This document shows, piece after piece, positions 10,822-16,258 of a stretch of 64,000 nucleotides of DNA. A model generated the notes under the pieces. The model had not been told where the DNA came from and ran no database searches. It was given only the letters and a program-made list of their open reading frames with translations. The position numbers and the translations under genes are program-made. Each line of letters opens with the position of its first letter. The first letter of the stretch is position 1. Origin of the DNA: Candidatus Barnesiella excrementavium. GTDB taxonomy: Bacteria; Bacteroidota; Bacteroidia; Bacteroidales; Barnesiellaceae. The DNA lies in assembly GCA_019115485.1 (NCBI GenBank), contig DXDM01000052.1, forward strand, positions 1-64,000. The letters run 5' to 3'.

Positions 10822-11092
10822 ATCGTTGTATAATTGGTTTTTCTCCTATAACATGCGGCCCGCATAAAAAGTTTACCGGTTGGGAAAATTTTGTTCCGGC
10901 TGGCCGTTGCCCGATGGGCTGTGGCTTGTCGGCTATCACAACAATTAGGTAGGGCAGGGCGTTGATTTCATGGAAAAAGGGGATTGCACAGGTGGAAAGA
11001 AAGCAGTTTCTTTGTACTGTCAAAACCGTAGTGATTTCGAAACAAAGAGACTATCTTTGTATAAACATGAACAAAAAAGAAAAGAGAGTAGA
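10822..11092. other. Divergent intergenic region, lipoprotein and hemerythrin genes
   Basis: No gene. An open frame extends upstream from 11093 to 10970, but the segment carries promoter-like sequence and is better read as a leader. I see no repeats of note. Confidence 0.4.
11052..11059 (+). promoter_or_regulatory. -7 promoter element for the hemerythrin/LuxR operon
   Basis: TATCTTTG, 34 bases before the ATG at 11093. It supports 11093 and not 10970 as the start, because an upstream start would lie before the transcript. Confidence 0.65.
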
Positions 11093-11788
11093 ATGTATAA
11101 ACTGGGAGCCTACAATCAAGACGACCGCATGAGCGATTTGGTGTGCGACAACTATCCGGTGTTGCTGGTCATGAGTCGGTTTGGCATCGCTCTGGGTTTT
11201 GGCGACAAGAGCATCGGCGAGGTGTGCCGGGAGAACGGTGTACACACCGGTACCTTTCTGACTGTGGTCAATCTGTTGCTGAACGAGGACGAGGTCGAGG
11301 AGTATGGGGGCGATATTTCGATAGAGGCCCTGCTGGGGTATCTGCACAACTCGCACGACTATTTTCTCAATTTCAGGTTGCCGGCTATCCGGCGCAACTT
11401 GCTGGGGGCTATCGACTGCGGCGGGAAAGACATAGCCATAGCCATATTCCGCTTCTTCGACGAGTATGTGGCCGAGGTGCAGAAACACATGCGATACGAG
11501 GAGAGCACGGTGTTCCCCTATGTGAATGCCCTGTTGCGGGGCGAACGGCCCGCGGGATACAGCATTGCTGTCTTCCGCAAGCGGCATGACCAGGTCGAGG
11601 CCAAACTGACCGAGCTGAAAAACATACTCATCAAGTATTATCCGGCATCGGGCAGCAACGAGCTGAACAGCGTGCTGTTCGACATCTTTACCTGTGAGCA
11701 GGATTTGGCCTCGCACAACTACATAGAAGATTATCTGTTTGTCCCGGCCATTCAGGAGTTGGAACGTAAAATAGAAGAGACGCGATGA
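11093..11788 (+). CDS. Hemerythrin-domain di-iron protein (RIC/ScdA-like)
   Basis: A 231-residue cytoplasmic protein. The N-terminus (about residues 12-62, MSDLVCDNYPVLLVMSRFGI) resembles the ScdA_N/RIC module, and the rest is a hemerythrin four-helix bundle. Candidate iron ligands are in order: His85 or His88, His132 with Glu136 (HMRYE), His165, and His208 with Glu212 (HNYIE). Such proteins repair iron-sulfur clusters or sense nitric oxide, oxygen or iron. It overlaps the following LuxR-type gene by four bases (ATGA), so both are made together, which suggests the di-iron protein feeds a signal to, or is controlled by, that regulator. The start was chosen from the promoter and from a clear MYKLG N-terminus. 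Confidence 0.82.
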   Translation: MYKLGAYNQDDRMSDLVCDNYPVLLVMSRFGIALGFGDKSIGEVCRENGVHTGTFLTVVNLLLNEDEVEEYGGDISIEALLGYLHNSHDYFLNFRLPAIRRNLLGAIDCGGKDIAIAIFRFFDEYVAEVQKHMRYEESTVFPYVNALLRGERPAGYSIAVFRKRHDQVEAKLTELKNILIKYYPASGSNELNSVLFDIFTCEQDLASHNYIEDYLFVPAIQELERKIEETR

Positions 11789-12402
11789 AGCCGGTGGTAA
11801 AAGTAATTGTAGCAGAACCTTCGTTGATTATTCGCAAGGGGTTGCTCTCGGTGTTGAAAAAGATATCGACCTTCAATCTCGAAGTGAGCGAGGTGGCCGA
11901 TGTGCAACAGCTCACTGCTTCGCTGTCGTGGCATAAACCCGACGTGCTGATTGTCAATCCCAGTCTGGCGGGCGTGGTCCCGGTCGTGACGGGGAAGCGA
12001 GGAGCCGACGAGCTACCCCCCAAGTCGATTGCGTTGCAAAACTCGTTGGTCGACGCCTCGGTGTTGAAGATGTACGACGAGGTTATCTCGGTCTACGATA
12101 CCGCCGAGCAGATACGGGGCAAGTTTGAGAAGCTGGTGCATGCCGCTTCGCAGAAGGTCGGGCGGCAGGAGCCGCTCACCGAGCGTGAAAAAGAGATTAT
12201 CGTGTGTGTTGTCAAGGGCATGACCAACAAGCAGATTGCCGAACAGTTGTGCCTGTCGGCCCATACGGTTATCACCCACCGACGCAACATTGCCGGCAAG
12301 TTGCAGATACACAGCCCGGCGGGGTTGACCATCTATGCCATCGTCAACAAGTTTGTCGACATCAACGATGTGAAGGATTCTATTTATAACCGTGAGGAGT
12401 GA
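11785..12402 (+). CDS. LuxR-type regulator with degenerate receiver domain
   Basis: A 205-residue protein. Residues about 5-120 follow the receiver fold, but the phosphoacceptor position at the end of strand 3 is Asn58 (DVLIVNPSL) and the acidic pocket has only Glu11. It is therefore unlikely to be switched by phosphorylation. A NarL/LuxR helix-turn-helix occupies about 136-196 (LTEREKEIIVCVVKGMTNKQ, then HTVITHRRNIAGKL). No sensor kinase is nearby. The overlap with the hemerythrin gene suggests that the di-iron partner replaces phosphorylation as the input, for example as a redox or NO signal; this is inference. A terminator follows at 12441. Confidence 0.85.
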   Translation: MKPVVKVIVAEPSLIIRKGLLSVLKKISTFNLEVSEVADVQQLTASLSWHKPDVLIVNPSLAGVVPVVTGKRGADELPPKSIALQNSLVDASVLKMYDEVISVYDTAEQIRGKFEKLVHAASQKVGRQEPLTEREKEIIVCVVKGMTNKQIAEQLCLSAHTVITHRRNIAGKLQIHSPAGLTIYAIVNKFVDINDVKDSIYNREE

Positions 12403-13454: not shown

Positions 13455-16223
13455 TCAACTCTCGCCCTTTTTCCGTTTGAGAAAGTCGGTGGGAATCTCG
13501 CCGAAATACTCCTTGTAGCATTTGGTGAAGTAGGAGGGTGAACTGAACCCCACTTCGTAGGTAATTTCGGCTACGGTCTTCTCGGTCGAGGCCAGCAGCG
13601 AGGCGGCCCGTTTGAGGCGGGCGATGCGCAGCAGTTCGTTGGGCGAGTAGCCGCATAGCGCCTTGGTCTTGCGGTAGAGCTGCACGCGGCTCAATCCAAT
13701 CTGCTCGCCCAACGCCTCGACACTGAGGTTGGGGTTCGACAGGTTCTCGTCGATGAGGTGGCGCAGTTTCTCCATGAAACTCTTGTCTACCTCGTTGATT
13801 GAGGGCTTTGACTGAGAGAGGGGCGTGTTGATGCTATCGGTAAAGAAATTTTGCAGACGACGGCGGTTGTCGATGAGGTTGTGCAGTCGGGCCGTGAGCA
13901 GTCGGGCACTGAACGGTTTGGCGATATACGAGTCGGCTCCGCACTCATAACCCTTTATCTTCTGTTCGTCCATGGCATAGGCCGTGAGCATCATCACGGG
14001 AATGTGCGAGGTTTGCATCTCGGTTTTCAACCGGCGGCAGCACTCCATGCCGTCCATGACGGGCATCATCACGTCGCAGATGATGGCGTCGGGCACGTAT
14101 TTCATGGCCATCTGGATACCCTCCTGGCCGTTGGCCGCTTCGAGCACATGATACTCGTCCTGCAAGACCGTGCGCACGTAGTCGCGAATGTCCTGATTGT
14201 CGTCGATGACGAGCACACTCTTTTTGTCTTCGGGAGTCGATTCGCGGGGCGAGGTCTGCAGCGACTCCTGGTCGGCCGCCAGTACGGCCCCCTCTTTCAG
14301 GTTGGTGAGCACGGCGCTGCGGGTGGTGTCGGGGTCGAGCGCTCCCGATTGTCGGGCCGGTATTTCGATGGTGAAGCAGGTGCCTTGCCCCTCGGTGGTA
14401 TCGACATGTATCGTGCCGTGGTGCATCTCGACAAAGGCTTTGACCAGTGCCAGTCCGATGCCCGAACCGGCATGGTGTACATCAATCTGGTAGAAGCTGT
14501 CGAAGATGTGCTGCACATGTTCGGCCGGCATACCTACACCGGTGTCGGTCACTTGCAGACGCAAGAAGGGTTCGCCCTCCCGGTCGAAGCGGGAGAGTAT
14601 GACGCGGATTGTCCCGTTTTCGGGGGTAAACTTGAAGGCGTTGGAGAGCAGGTTGTAGATGATACGCTCCAATTTCTCGGCATCGGCCGTGACGGTGAAA
14701 TCGGTTTGCTCGTCGGCCTGAATACCAAAGTGAATGTGCTTGCGGAAGGCGAGGGTGCGGAAGGCGTCGGTCCATTCGGCGAGCGAGCTCCGCAGGTCAA
14801 ACTGGCTCAGCCGCATTTGCAGCTTGCCGTCTTCAAATTTGCGGAAGTCGAGTACCTGGTTGACGAGCCGCAACAGTACGGTGACGTTTTTGTGAATGAT
14901 GTTGAGCAGGAACCGCTCGTGCTTGTCGAGGTTGTGGCTTTGGCTCAGCTGGTCTACCGGGTCGGCAATGAGCGTGAGTGGGGTGCGGAAGTCGTGCGAC
15001 ACGTTGGTGAAGAAGGCCAGCTTGGCATGCGTGGCATCTTCGAGCTGTCGCGACAGGGTGATGAGCTGGTCGCGCTGCTCTTCGAGTTGCTGCTTCTGTC
15101 GTGACAGTTCGGCATTCAGGCGGTTCTTGGTCCAGAAGGCCCGCACCATGATTACGAGCAGAATACCCACCAGCACCAGAATCACGATGCAGGCAAAGAG
15201 GAACATGCGTTGGGCCGAATAGCGCAGCAGGAAGGCGTCGAGCTGACTGTTGAGCCGCTCGATTTTCTCGTCGAGGGTACTGATGTGGGCTGTCTGCATC
15301 TGCATGATGCGGGCATTCTGCCGGTTGACCAGGGCGGTCGAGAGTAGTGTCTCGCGCGGATAGTCGCGCCCTTCGAGTATGTTCATGGCCACCTGCACCA
15401 CCCGGTCGCCCCCGGTGGGATAGATGAAGGTAGCGTCGAGAATGCTGTCGGCCACCAGGTTTACCCCCAACCCTTTACCCGAGAGGGCATCTACCCCCAC
15501 GAAGAGCATCTCGTCTTCCCGACCTTCACGCACGGCCGCTTCGTGAGCCCCCGAGGCCATGCGGTCGTTGTGGGCAAAAACCAGGTCGATGTGGGGTTGC
15601 CGGGCGAGAATGGAGTCGAAGGCCCGCTCGGCCGATTGCTGGAACCAGCCGGCGTCGGCTGTGGCCACGATGTGGATACCGGGTTCGTCGGACAGGGCGT
15701 CAATGAGTCCCCGGTGGCGGTCACGAGCCGGGGTAGAACCCTTCAATCCGGTGAGCTCCACGATGTCCCCTTTCCCGTGCAGGCGATTGGCAATGTAGGT
15801 ACCTATCTGGTGCCCCATGTCGTAGTTGTCGGCTCCGATGTAGGCGGTGTAGTGGTCCGAGTCGATTTTGCGGTCGACCAGTACCACCGGGATTCCTTTG
15901 TCGTAGGCCTTTTCGATGACAGGAGTAATGGCCTCGGCTTCATTGGGAGCCACCACGATGAGGTCGGCTCCTTCGTCCATGAAGTATTCTATGTCGTCTA
16001 TCTGTTTTCGGTTGTCGTCGTGGGCCGACCGTATCTCGACGGTTACCCCCGGATAGAAGAGTGCCTCCCGGGCAATCTCCTTGTTCATCTGCGTGCGCCA
16101 CTCGTCGTCGCTGCATTGCGACACGCCAATCAAGATGCGGCTTTTCTCCTGGTGGCAGGAGGTGAGCATCAGGGTTGTCATGGAGCATAGGGCGAGGAGA
16201 ATAAGGATAGGCAGGCGTCTCAT
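13455..16223 (-). CDS. Hybrid two-component system with periplasmic-binding-protein sensor (fructose-sensor type)
   Basis: A 922-residue one-protein two-component system. The order is: signal/lipobox-like N-terminus (LTSC, Cys23); LacI/RbsB-type periplasmic binding domain (about 30-320); one membrane helix (about 340-361); histidine kinase with FFTNVSHDFRTPL (His410) and ATPase boxes (about 405-630); receiver with acceptor Asp in AIICDVMMPVMDG (about 670-785); AraC-type DNA-binding domain at the C-terminus. This architecture is the one of B. thetaiotaomicron BT1754, which binds fructose directly and controls fructan genes. The neighbouring fructokinase, GH32 and symporter genes support fructose as signal. 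The start ATG 16223 follows the -7 element at 16251-16258; the longer frame would use a TTG inside that element. Confidence 0.92.
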   Translation of the reverse strand: MRRLPILILLALCSMTTLMLTSCHQEKSRILIGVSQCSDDEWRTQMNKEIAREALFYPGVTVEIRSAHDDNRKQIDDIEYFMDEGADLIVVAPNEAEAITPVIEKAYDKGIPVVLVDRKIDSDHYTAYIGADNYDMGHQIGTYIANRLHGKGDIVELTGLKGSTPARDRHRGLIDALSDEPGIHIVATADAGWFQQSAERAFDSILARQPHIDLVFAHNDRMASGAHEAAVREGREDEMLFVGVDALSGKGLGVNLVADSILDATFIYPTGGDRVVQVAMNILEGRDYPRETLLSTALVNRQNARIMQMQTAHISTLDEKIERLNSQLDAFLLRYSAQRMFLFACIVILVLVGILLVIMVRAFWTKNRLNAELSRQKQQLEEQRDQLITLSRQLEDATHAKLAFFTNVSHDFRTPLTLIADPVDQLSQSHNLDKHERFLLNIIHKNVTVLLRLVNQVLDFRKFEDGKLQMRLSQFDLRSSLAEWTDAFRTLAFRKHIHFGIQADEQTDFTVTADAEKLERIIYNLLSNAFKFTPENGTIRVILSRFDREGEPFLRLQVTDTGVGMPAEHVQHIFDSFYQIDVHHAGSGIGLALVKAFVEMHHGTIHVDTTEGQGTCFTIEIPARQSGALDPDTTRSAVLTNLKEGAVLAADQESLQTSPRESTPEDKKSVLVIDDNQDIRDYVRTVLQDEYHVLEAANGQEGIQMAMKYVPDAIICDVMMPVMDGMECCRRLKTEMQTSHIPVMMLTAYAMDEQKIKGYECGADSYIAKPFSARLLTARLHNLIDNRRRLQNFFTDSINTPLSQSKPSINEVDKSFMEKLRHLIDENLSNPNLSVEALGEQIGLSRVQLYRKTKALCGYSPNELLRIARLKRAASLLASTEKTVAEITYEVGFSSPSYFTKCYKEYFGEIPTDFLKRKKGES

Positions 16224-16250
16224 AGCTTCTGTTTTGAAGATTAAGATAGG

Positions 16251-16258
16251 CAAAGATA
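16251..16258 (-). promoter_or_regulatory. -7 promoter element for the hybrid two-component gene
   Basis: TATCTTTG on the minus strand, 28 bases before the start codon at 16223. Confidence 0.65.

Follow-up and report, generated by a model that had tools for sequence, protein, structure and literature searches.

The two overlapping genes at 11,093 to 12,402 of the window, by which we mean the whole 64,000-nucleotide stretch of Candidatus Barnesiella excrementavium DNA that was analysed (contig DXDM01000052.1), probably encode a CdhR-type regulator made up of two proteins, in which the state of a di-iron hemerythrin protein would control a LuxR-type DNA-binding domain, with iron supply as the likeliest input. 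Such pairs occur widely among gut-type Bacteroidales and are not new to science. A two-protein system of a hemerythrin and a regulator was already proposed in a paper of 2023, which describes the operon in Porphyromonas gingivalis (PG1236-CdhR, CdhR being PG1237) and in Bacteroides thetaiotaomicron (BT_0519-0520), as well as a fused version in Prevotella intermedia (PIN17_RS10465) (PMC10434189). These counterparts agree with what was found here in gene order, in domain types and in having a fused form, and are likened to it by layout, not by sequence. Within the openly accessible literature, to which the comparison was confined, the passages of PMC10434189 consulted on PG1236-CdhR and BT_0519-0520 do not speak of a degenerate receiver, of its repeated loss, of ligands conserved throughout the family or of paralogues that lack them. 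Apparently, then, it is the 21 receiver-less fusions, the retention of ligands in 154 of 161 hemerythrins, the Asn-Pro degeneracy of the receiver and the ligandless clade that are new here.

The gene pair

The coordinates of the pair and of the features around it are collected in Table 1. A hemerythrin gene followed directly by the gene for a LuxR-type regulator is the arrangement by which a CdhR-type operon is defined in PMC10434189, and this is the arrangement in the window. The hemerythrin start codon is kept in an alignment of nine genus relatives, and the four-base overlap of the two genes that the first-pass annotation had reported was borne out as an ATGA, across which translation is likely to be coupled.

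Table 1. The hemerythrin-LuxR pair, its upstream region and the neighbouring hybrid regulator (positions in the window)
Feature	Position	Strand	Basis
Genus-conserved block ACAATTAGGTA, candidate operator	10941..10951	+	Alignment, nine genus relatives
Genus-conserved block TTTCATGGAAAAAGGGGATTG, candidate operator	10966..10986	+	Alignment, nine genus relatives; sole exact match in the genome
TATCTTTG, fits the Bacteroidetes -7 promoter consensus	11052..11059	+	Kept in nine genus relatives
RIC-like hemerythrin-domain protein, 231 aa	11093..11788	+	ATG at 11093, stop at 11788; Pfam match, ligands, model
ATGA start/stop overlap	11785..11788	+	Sequence
LuxR/NarL-type regulator, 205 aa	11785..12402	+	ATG at 11785, stop at 12402; GerE match, model
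Hybrid two-component regulator (sugar-binding sensor, kinase, receiver, AraC)	13455-16253	minus	Domain matches

Pairing across the Bacteroidales

The first-pass annotation had proposed a genome survey of how often the two genes occur together, and had held that finding them mostly apart would count against their forming a unit. Two profile searches were run over the same 218 Bacteroidales genomes and the best 150 matches to each profile were counted, weaker members remaining uncounted; adjacency was judged first by coordinates, which gave 130 pairs, and the leftover matches on either side were then fetched and inspected. Among the best 150 hemerythrin matches, 138 adjoin a regulator, 6 are fused to one, 5 have no regulator beside them and 1 is truncated where its contig ends, i.e., the hemerythrin is beside or fused to a regulator in 144 of the 149 assessable cases (97%), a figure that applies to the Bacteroidales, most of the weak matches in a 296-genome sample of the phylum having lain outside the pairing check. 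Seen from the other side, 144 of the best 150 regulator matches adjoin a hemerythrin and six are apart from one; the two genes are on separate contigs in four genomes (G017, G024, G339 and G428). A scan of named organisms, using a profile built from ten sequences, found every one of 80 loci paired, 13 of them by fusion, in Alistipes, Parabacteroides, Tannerella, Bacteroides, Phocaeicola and others. Overlapping genes were counted in 96 of 135 pairs, and in 51 the overlap measures exactly 4 bases. The adjacency recurs over the whole order and is therefore not due to chance, and the two genes proved to be together in nearly all assessable cases, not mostly apart.

Judging by coordinates, the gene order seems to be reversed, with the regulator upstream of the hemerythrin, at two loci (L150 in G027 and L151 in G434). 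Two hemerythrin-LuxR pairs in tandem, separated by about 2-3 kb, were seen in Parabacteroides (L072 and L077) and likewise at L035 (G015:C78).

A degenerate receiver

The regulator has an intact GerE helix-turn-helix (HTH) at residues 130-185 (63.4 bits), preceded by a receiver region at residues 1-124. Its structure model (pLDDT 84) shows a (beta-alpha)5 receiver and then the HTH, which is the fold expected of a NarL-type protein; the closest solved structures are StyR, LiaR and FixJ, with NarL also matched, and the receiver-plus-LuxR layout is common to this whole group of NarL/FixJ response regulators. Unlike them, the window regulator has no phospho-accepting Asp, no acidic pair, no switch Lys, no match to PF00072 and no cognate kinase. 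Asn58 occupies the phospho-site, as the first-pass annotation had it, and sits directly past predicted strand beta-3; the acidic-pair position is A10/E11 and the switch-Lys position is D105, so that the loss goes beyond a single catalytic residue. PF00072 was matched neither by the window regulator nor by any of 39 pair regulators searched (0/39), and the receiver search can be said to work, since the same library gave 95.7 bits to the canonical receiver of a hybrid kinase in the same window.

Judged from the sequences of its members, the degeneracy of the receiver is family-wide. Among 140 regulators the phospho-site residue is Asn in 106, Asp in 14 and Ser in 8; the switch-Lys position is Asp105 in 111 of the 140 and position 59 is Pro in the same number, which suggests that the Asn-Pro motif is held by selection and is not drifting. 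The earlier assertion that the regulator cannot be phosphorylated stands for ordinary Asp phosphotransfer, which is excluded, but goes too far as a general statement, its relative CdhR having been linked to tyrosine (de)phosphorylation (PMC4082711, PMC9666725). Similarly, the remark that no kinase is near needs amending, as a hybrid histidine kinase lies about 1 kb downstream, yet that kinase is self-contained because it carries a canonical receiver and an AraC output of its own, and these domains rule it out as the regulator's partner. A gene for a PfkB sugar kinase adjoins the hybrid regulator, the two belonging to an ordinary Bacteroidales sugar-use locus.

Fusions without a receiver

In 21 distinct fusions the hemerythrin is joined straight to the LuxR HTH, typically with 3-45 residues between them and with no receiver. 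When fusion was mapped onto a tree built from 161 hemerythrin domains, it required 8 changes and occupied 8 clades, although gene trees this deep are imperfect, so that the figure of eight is approximate and what can safely be said is that it happened several times. All six di-iron ligands are kept in 19 of the 21 fusions. The strongest argument of the analysis follows from them: because the receiver is dispensable once the hemerythrin is tethered, we infer that the hemerythrin is the input to the HTH and the receiver a docking part. The recurrent fusions and the near-obligate pairing together uphold the coupling of the two proteins as originally suggested, with the di-iron protein as the presumptive input, an assignment that is well supported by the comparative sequence evidence.

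The di-iron protein and its kinship to RIC proteins

The hemerythrin protein matches Pfam Hemerythrin above the cut-off (45.6 bits), and its best full-length relatives are RIC proteins. Its structure model (pLDDT 92) has Staphylococcus aureus ScdA and Escherichia coli YtfE as the top solved matches at Z of about 15, on a scale where unrelated helical bundles can reach about 13; the kinship to ScdA does not rest on Z alone, since the match of ScdA by sequence profile (E 9e-13) is independent of it. The full ligand set that had been ascribed to the protein was found, six out of six, at H88, H132, E136, H165, H208 and E212, i.e., the four His and two Glu in a four-helix bundle that are expected of a RIC protein. 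These residues are invariant among close relatives, and all six are kept in 154 of 161 hemerythrins.

The hemerythrin could accordingly be taken for a RIC-type iron-sulfur repair or iron-donor protein that is a mere target of its neighbour, with the regulator controlling the operon without any signal from the hemerythrin. Such a reading, which we regard as unlikely, would account for the RIC model being matched by 37 of 37 members and for the fold matches to ScdA and YtfE, and the protein is the only Pfam hemerythrin found in the genome and therefore could be its sole repair protein. What the window hemerythrin shares with the RIC proteins (YtfE, ScdA, NorA/DnrN) is the four-helix di-iron bundle, the six-ligand pattern and the best fold matches; it differs from them in being tied to a transcription factor, to whose HTH its relatives have repeatedly been fused with loss of the receiver, and in a TIGR03652 RIC score of 46.2 bits, far beneath the curated equivalog cut-off of 204.7. 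The retention of ligandless paralogues beside a regulator, described below, also argues against a repair function. In addition, most bacterial RICs carry a DfCCgG motif in an N-terminal domain (PMC9268430), and almost no member of the family has this Cys-Cys pair at the expected position. It was not found in the ScdA_N-like N-terminal region of the window protein, any Cys at all occurs at the usual place (positions 30-40) in just 3 of 161 relatives, and a CC pair lies somewhere in the N-terminal part in 2 of the 161.

A lone Cys45 (window 11225-11227), near the region of the RIC Cys-Cys, is kept in 153 of 161 hemerythrins, and a redox or metal role for it is possible.

A paralogue without ligands

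The same genome holds a second hemerythrin-LuxR pair on another contig (L032:3471-4736, G000:C8), whose hemerythrin is strongly conserved within the genus yet is without five of the six ligands, a pattern that is repeated in the orthologues, making nine of nine genus genomes. The ligandless members (L032, L034, L039, L040 and L041) form one clade, the loss of ligands being a single change on the tree, and one of them, L034, is fused to its own HTH. As the ligandless clade keeps its regulator, the partnership can outlive the di-iron site, and this weakens the proposition that metal is always needed, though not for the window pair with its full site. The L032 pair and its orthologues in eight genus relatives (L172-L179) are downstream of a CtpA-like protease gene and a 5-formyl-THF cyclo-ligase-like gene.

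A clade that stays paired throughout the genus, and has a fused member, is also what would be expected if the hemerythrin were a structural partner of the regulator, i.e., a dimeriser, chaperone or inhibitor in which the metal is incidental and the signal is something else. We consider this even less probable than a repair protein, given the ligands kept in almost all members of the family and in most of the fusions, and given that their loss, as a single event, marks one derived subfamily.

The upstream region

Upstream of the pair are two genus-conserved blocks and a promoter-like sequence (Table 1). The -7 promoter consensus of Bacteroidetes is TAnnTTTG. That the blocks serve as operators is a guess. 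With up to two mismatches allowed, a genome-wide search with the 21-base block gave 2 forward and 4 reverse matches against 3 and 2 for a backwards control; the block was dropped as a regulon marker, its matches being no more frequent than those of the control, and no regulon was therefore deduced. One inexact match (L185) falls between a short-chain dehydrogenase gene and an aldolase-like gene. A search for Rfam leader RNAs returned a chance-level match alone, and a search of the genome for the HmuY family returned zero matches, its control being likewise silent. In Bacteroides timonensis (L129) no flavodoxin gene lies near the pair, and synteny with BT_0515-0520 is not established.

Mechanism and signal

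In the mechanism that we propose, the di-iron protein would dock on the pseudo-receiver, and the condition of the di-iron site (whether it holds iron, whether it is oxidised and whether a ligand is bound) would decide LuxR dimerisation and DNA binding. In the fusions the tether would make the receiver unnecessary, and the di-iron domain would act directly on the HTH. Iron supply could be read via the occupancy or the redox state of the site, where O2 or NO would be able to act too.

The signal had earlier been thought to be redox, NO or oxygen, and none of these is favoured over iron. The sole expression data found concern iron starvation: iron depletion induces the operon about 7-fold in P. 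gingivalis and 16-20-fold in B. thetaiotaomicron, according to PMC10434189. We favour iron as the best-documented candidate, on the understanding that sequence cannot separate iron, O2, NO and redox and that induction in low iron tells us that the operon is regulated, not that its product senses iron. In P. gingivalis, CdhR regulates hmuYR (PMC9666725, PMC10434189) and has been named a repressor of hmu (PMC2671838), and luxS and mfa1 are repressed by it (PMC4082711, PMC10434189). That the regulator is controlled otherwise, by tyrosine phosphorylation or simply by protein amount, is the least probable of the alternatives: the tyrosine (de)phosphorylation pathway of Ltp1/Ptk1 does act upstream of CdhR, whose transcript level shifts with it (PMC4082711, PMC9666725), and the operon's transcription is iron-dependent (PMC10434189), but whether CdhR is itself phosphorylated was still being studied at the time of PMC4082711, and control of this sort leaves the near-obligate hemerythrin partner and the receiver-less fusions unexplained.

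Relation to other sensors and significance

A regulator governed by its di-iron partner, the reading that we prefer, has likenesses outside the Bacteroidales. In mammalian FBXL5 a hemerythrin-like domain serves as the sensory input to an output domain. The same is true of Bhr-DGC (VC1216) of Vibrio cholerae, as cited in PMC10101095. What sets the pair apart from both is its output, a LuxR transcription factor that in most cases is a protein of its own and has a pseudo-receiver. More tentatively, the members of the family could together form a class of regulators that spans the order and works without kinases. A di-iron protein would stand in for the receiver's function and signal via an Asn-Pro pseudo-receiver, the products of about eight receiver deletions by fusion would be one-component sensors of iron, O2 or NO, and one branch would have become metal-free and answer to another input.

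Knowledge of the iron-sensing regulators of Bacteroidetes is scarce, as stated in PMC10434189. The near-obligate pair, together with its natural receiver-less fusions, offers a directly testable candidate for a sensor, and the fusions can be purified and assayed as single proteins. If the preferred reading is true, the pair would be a plain example of a metal protein taking the place of phosphorylation as the input to a response regulator.
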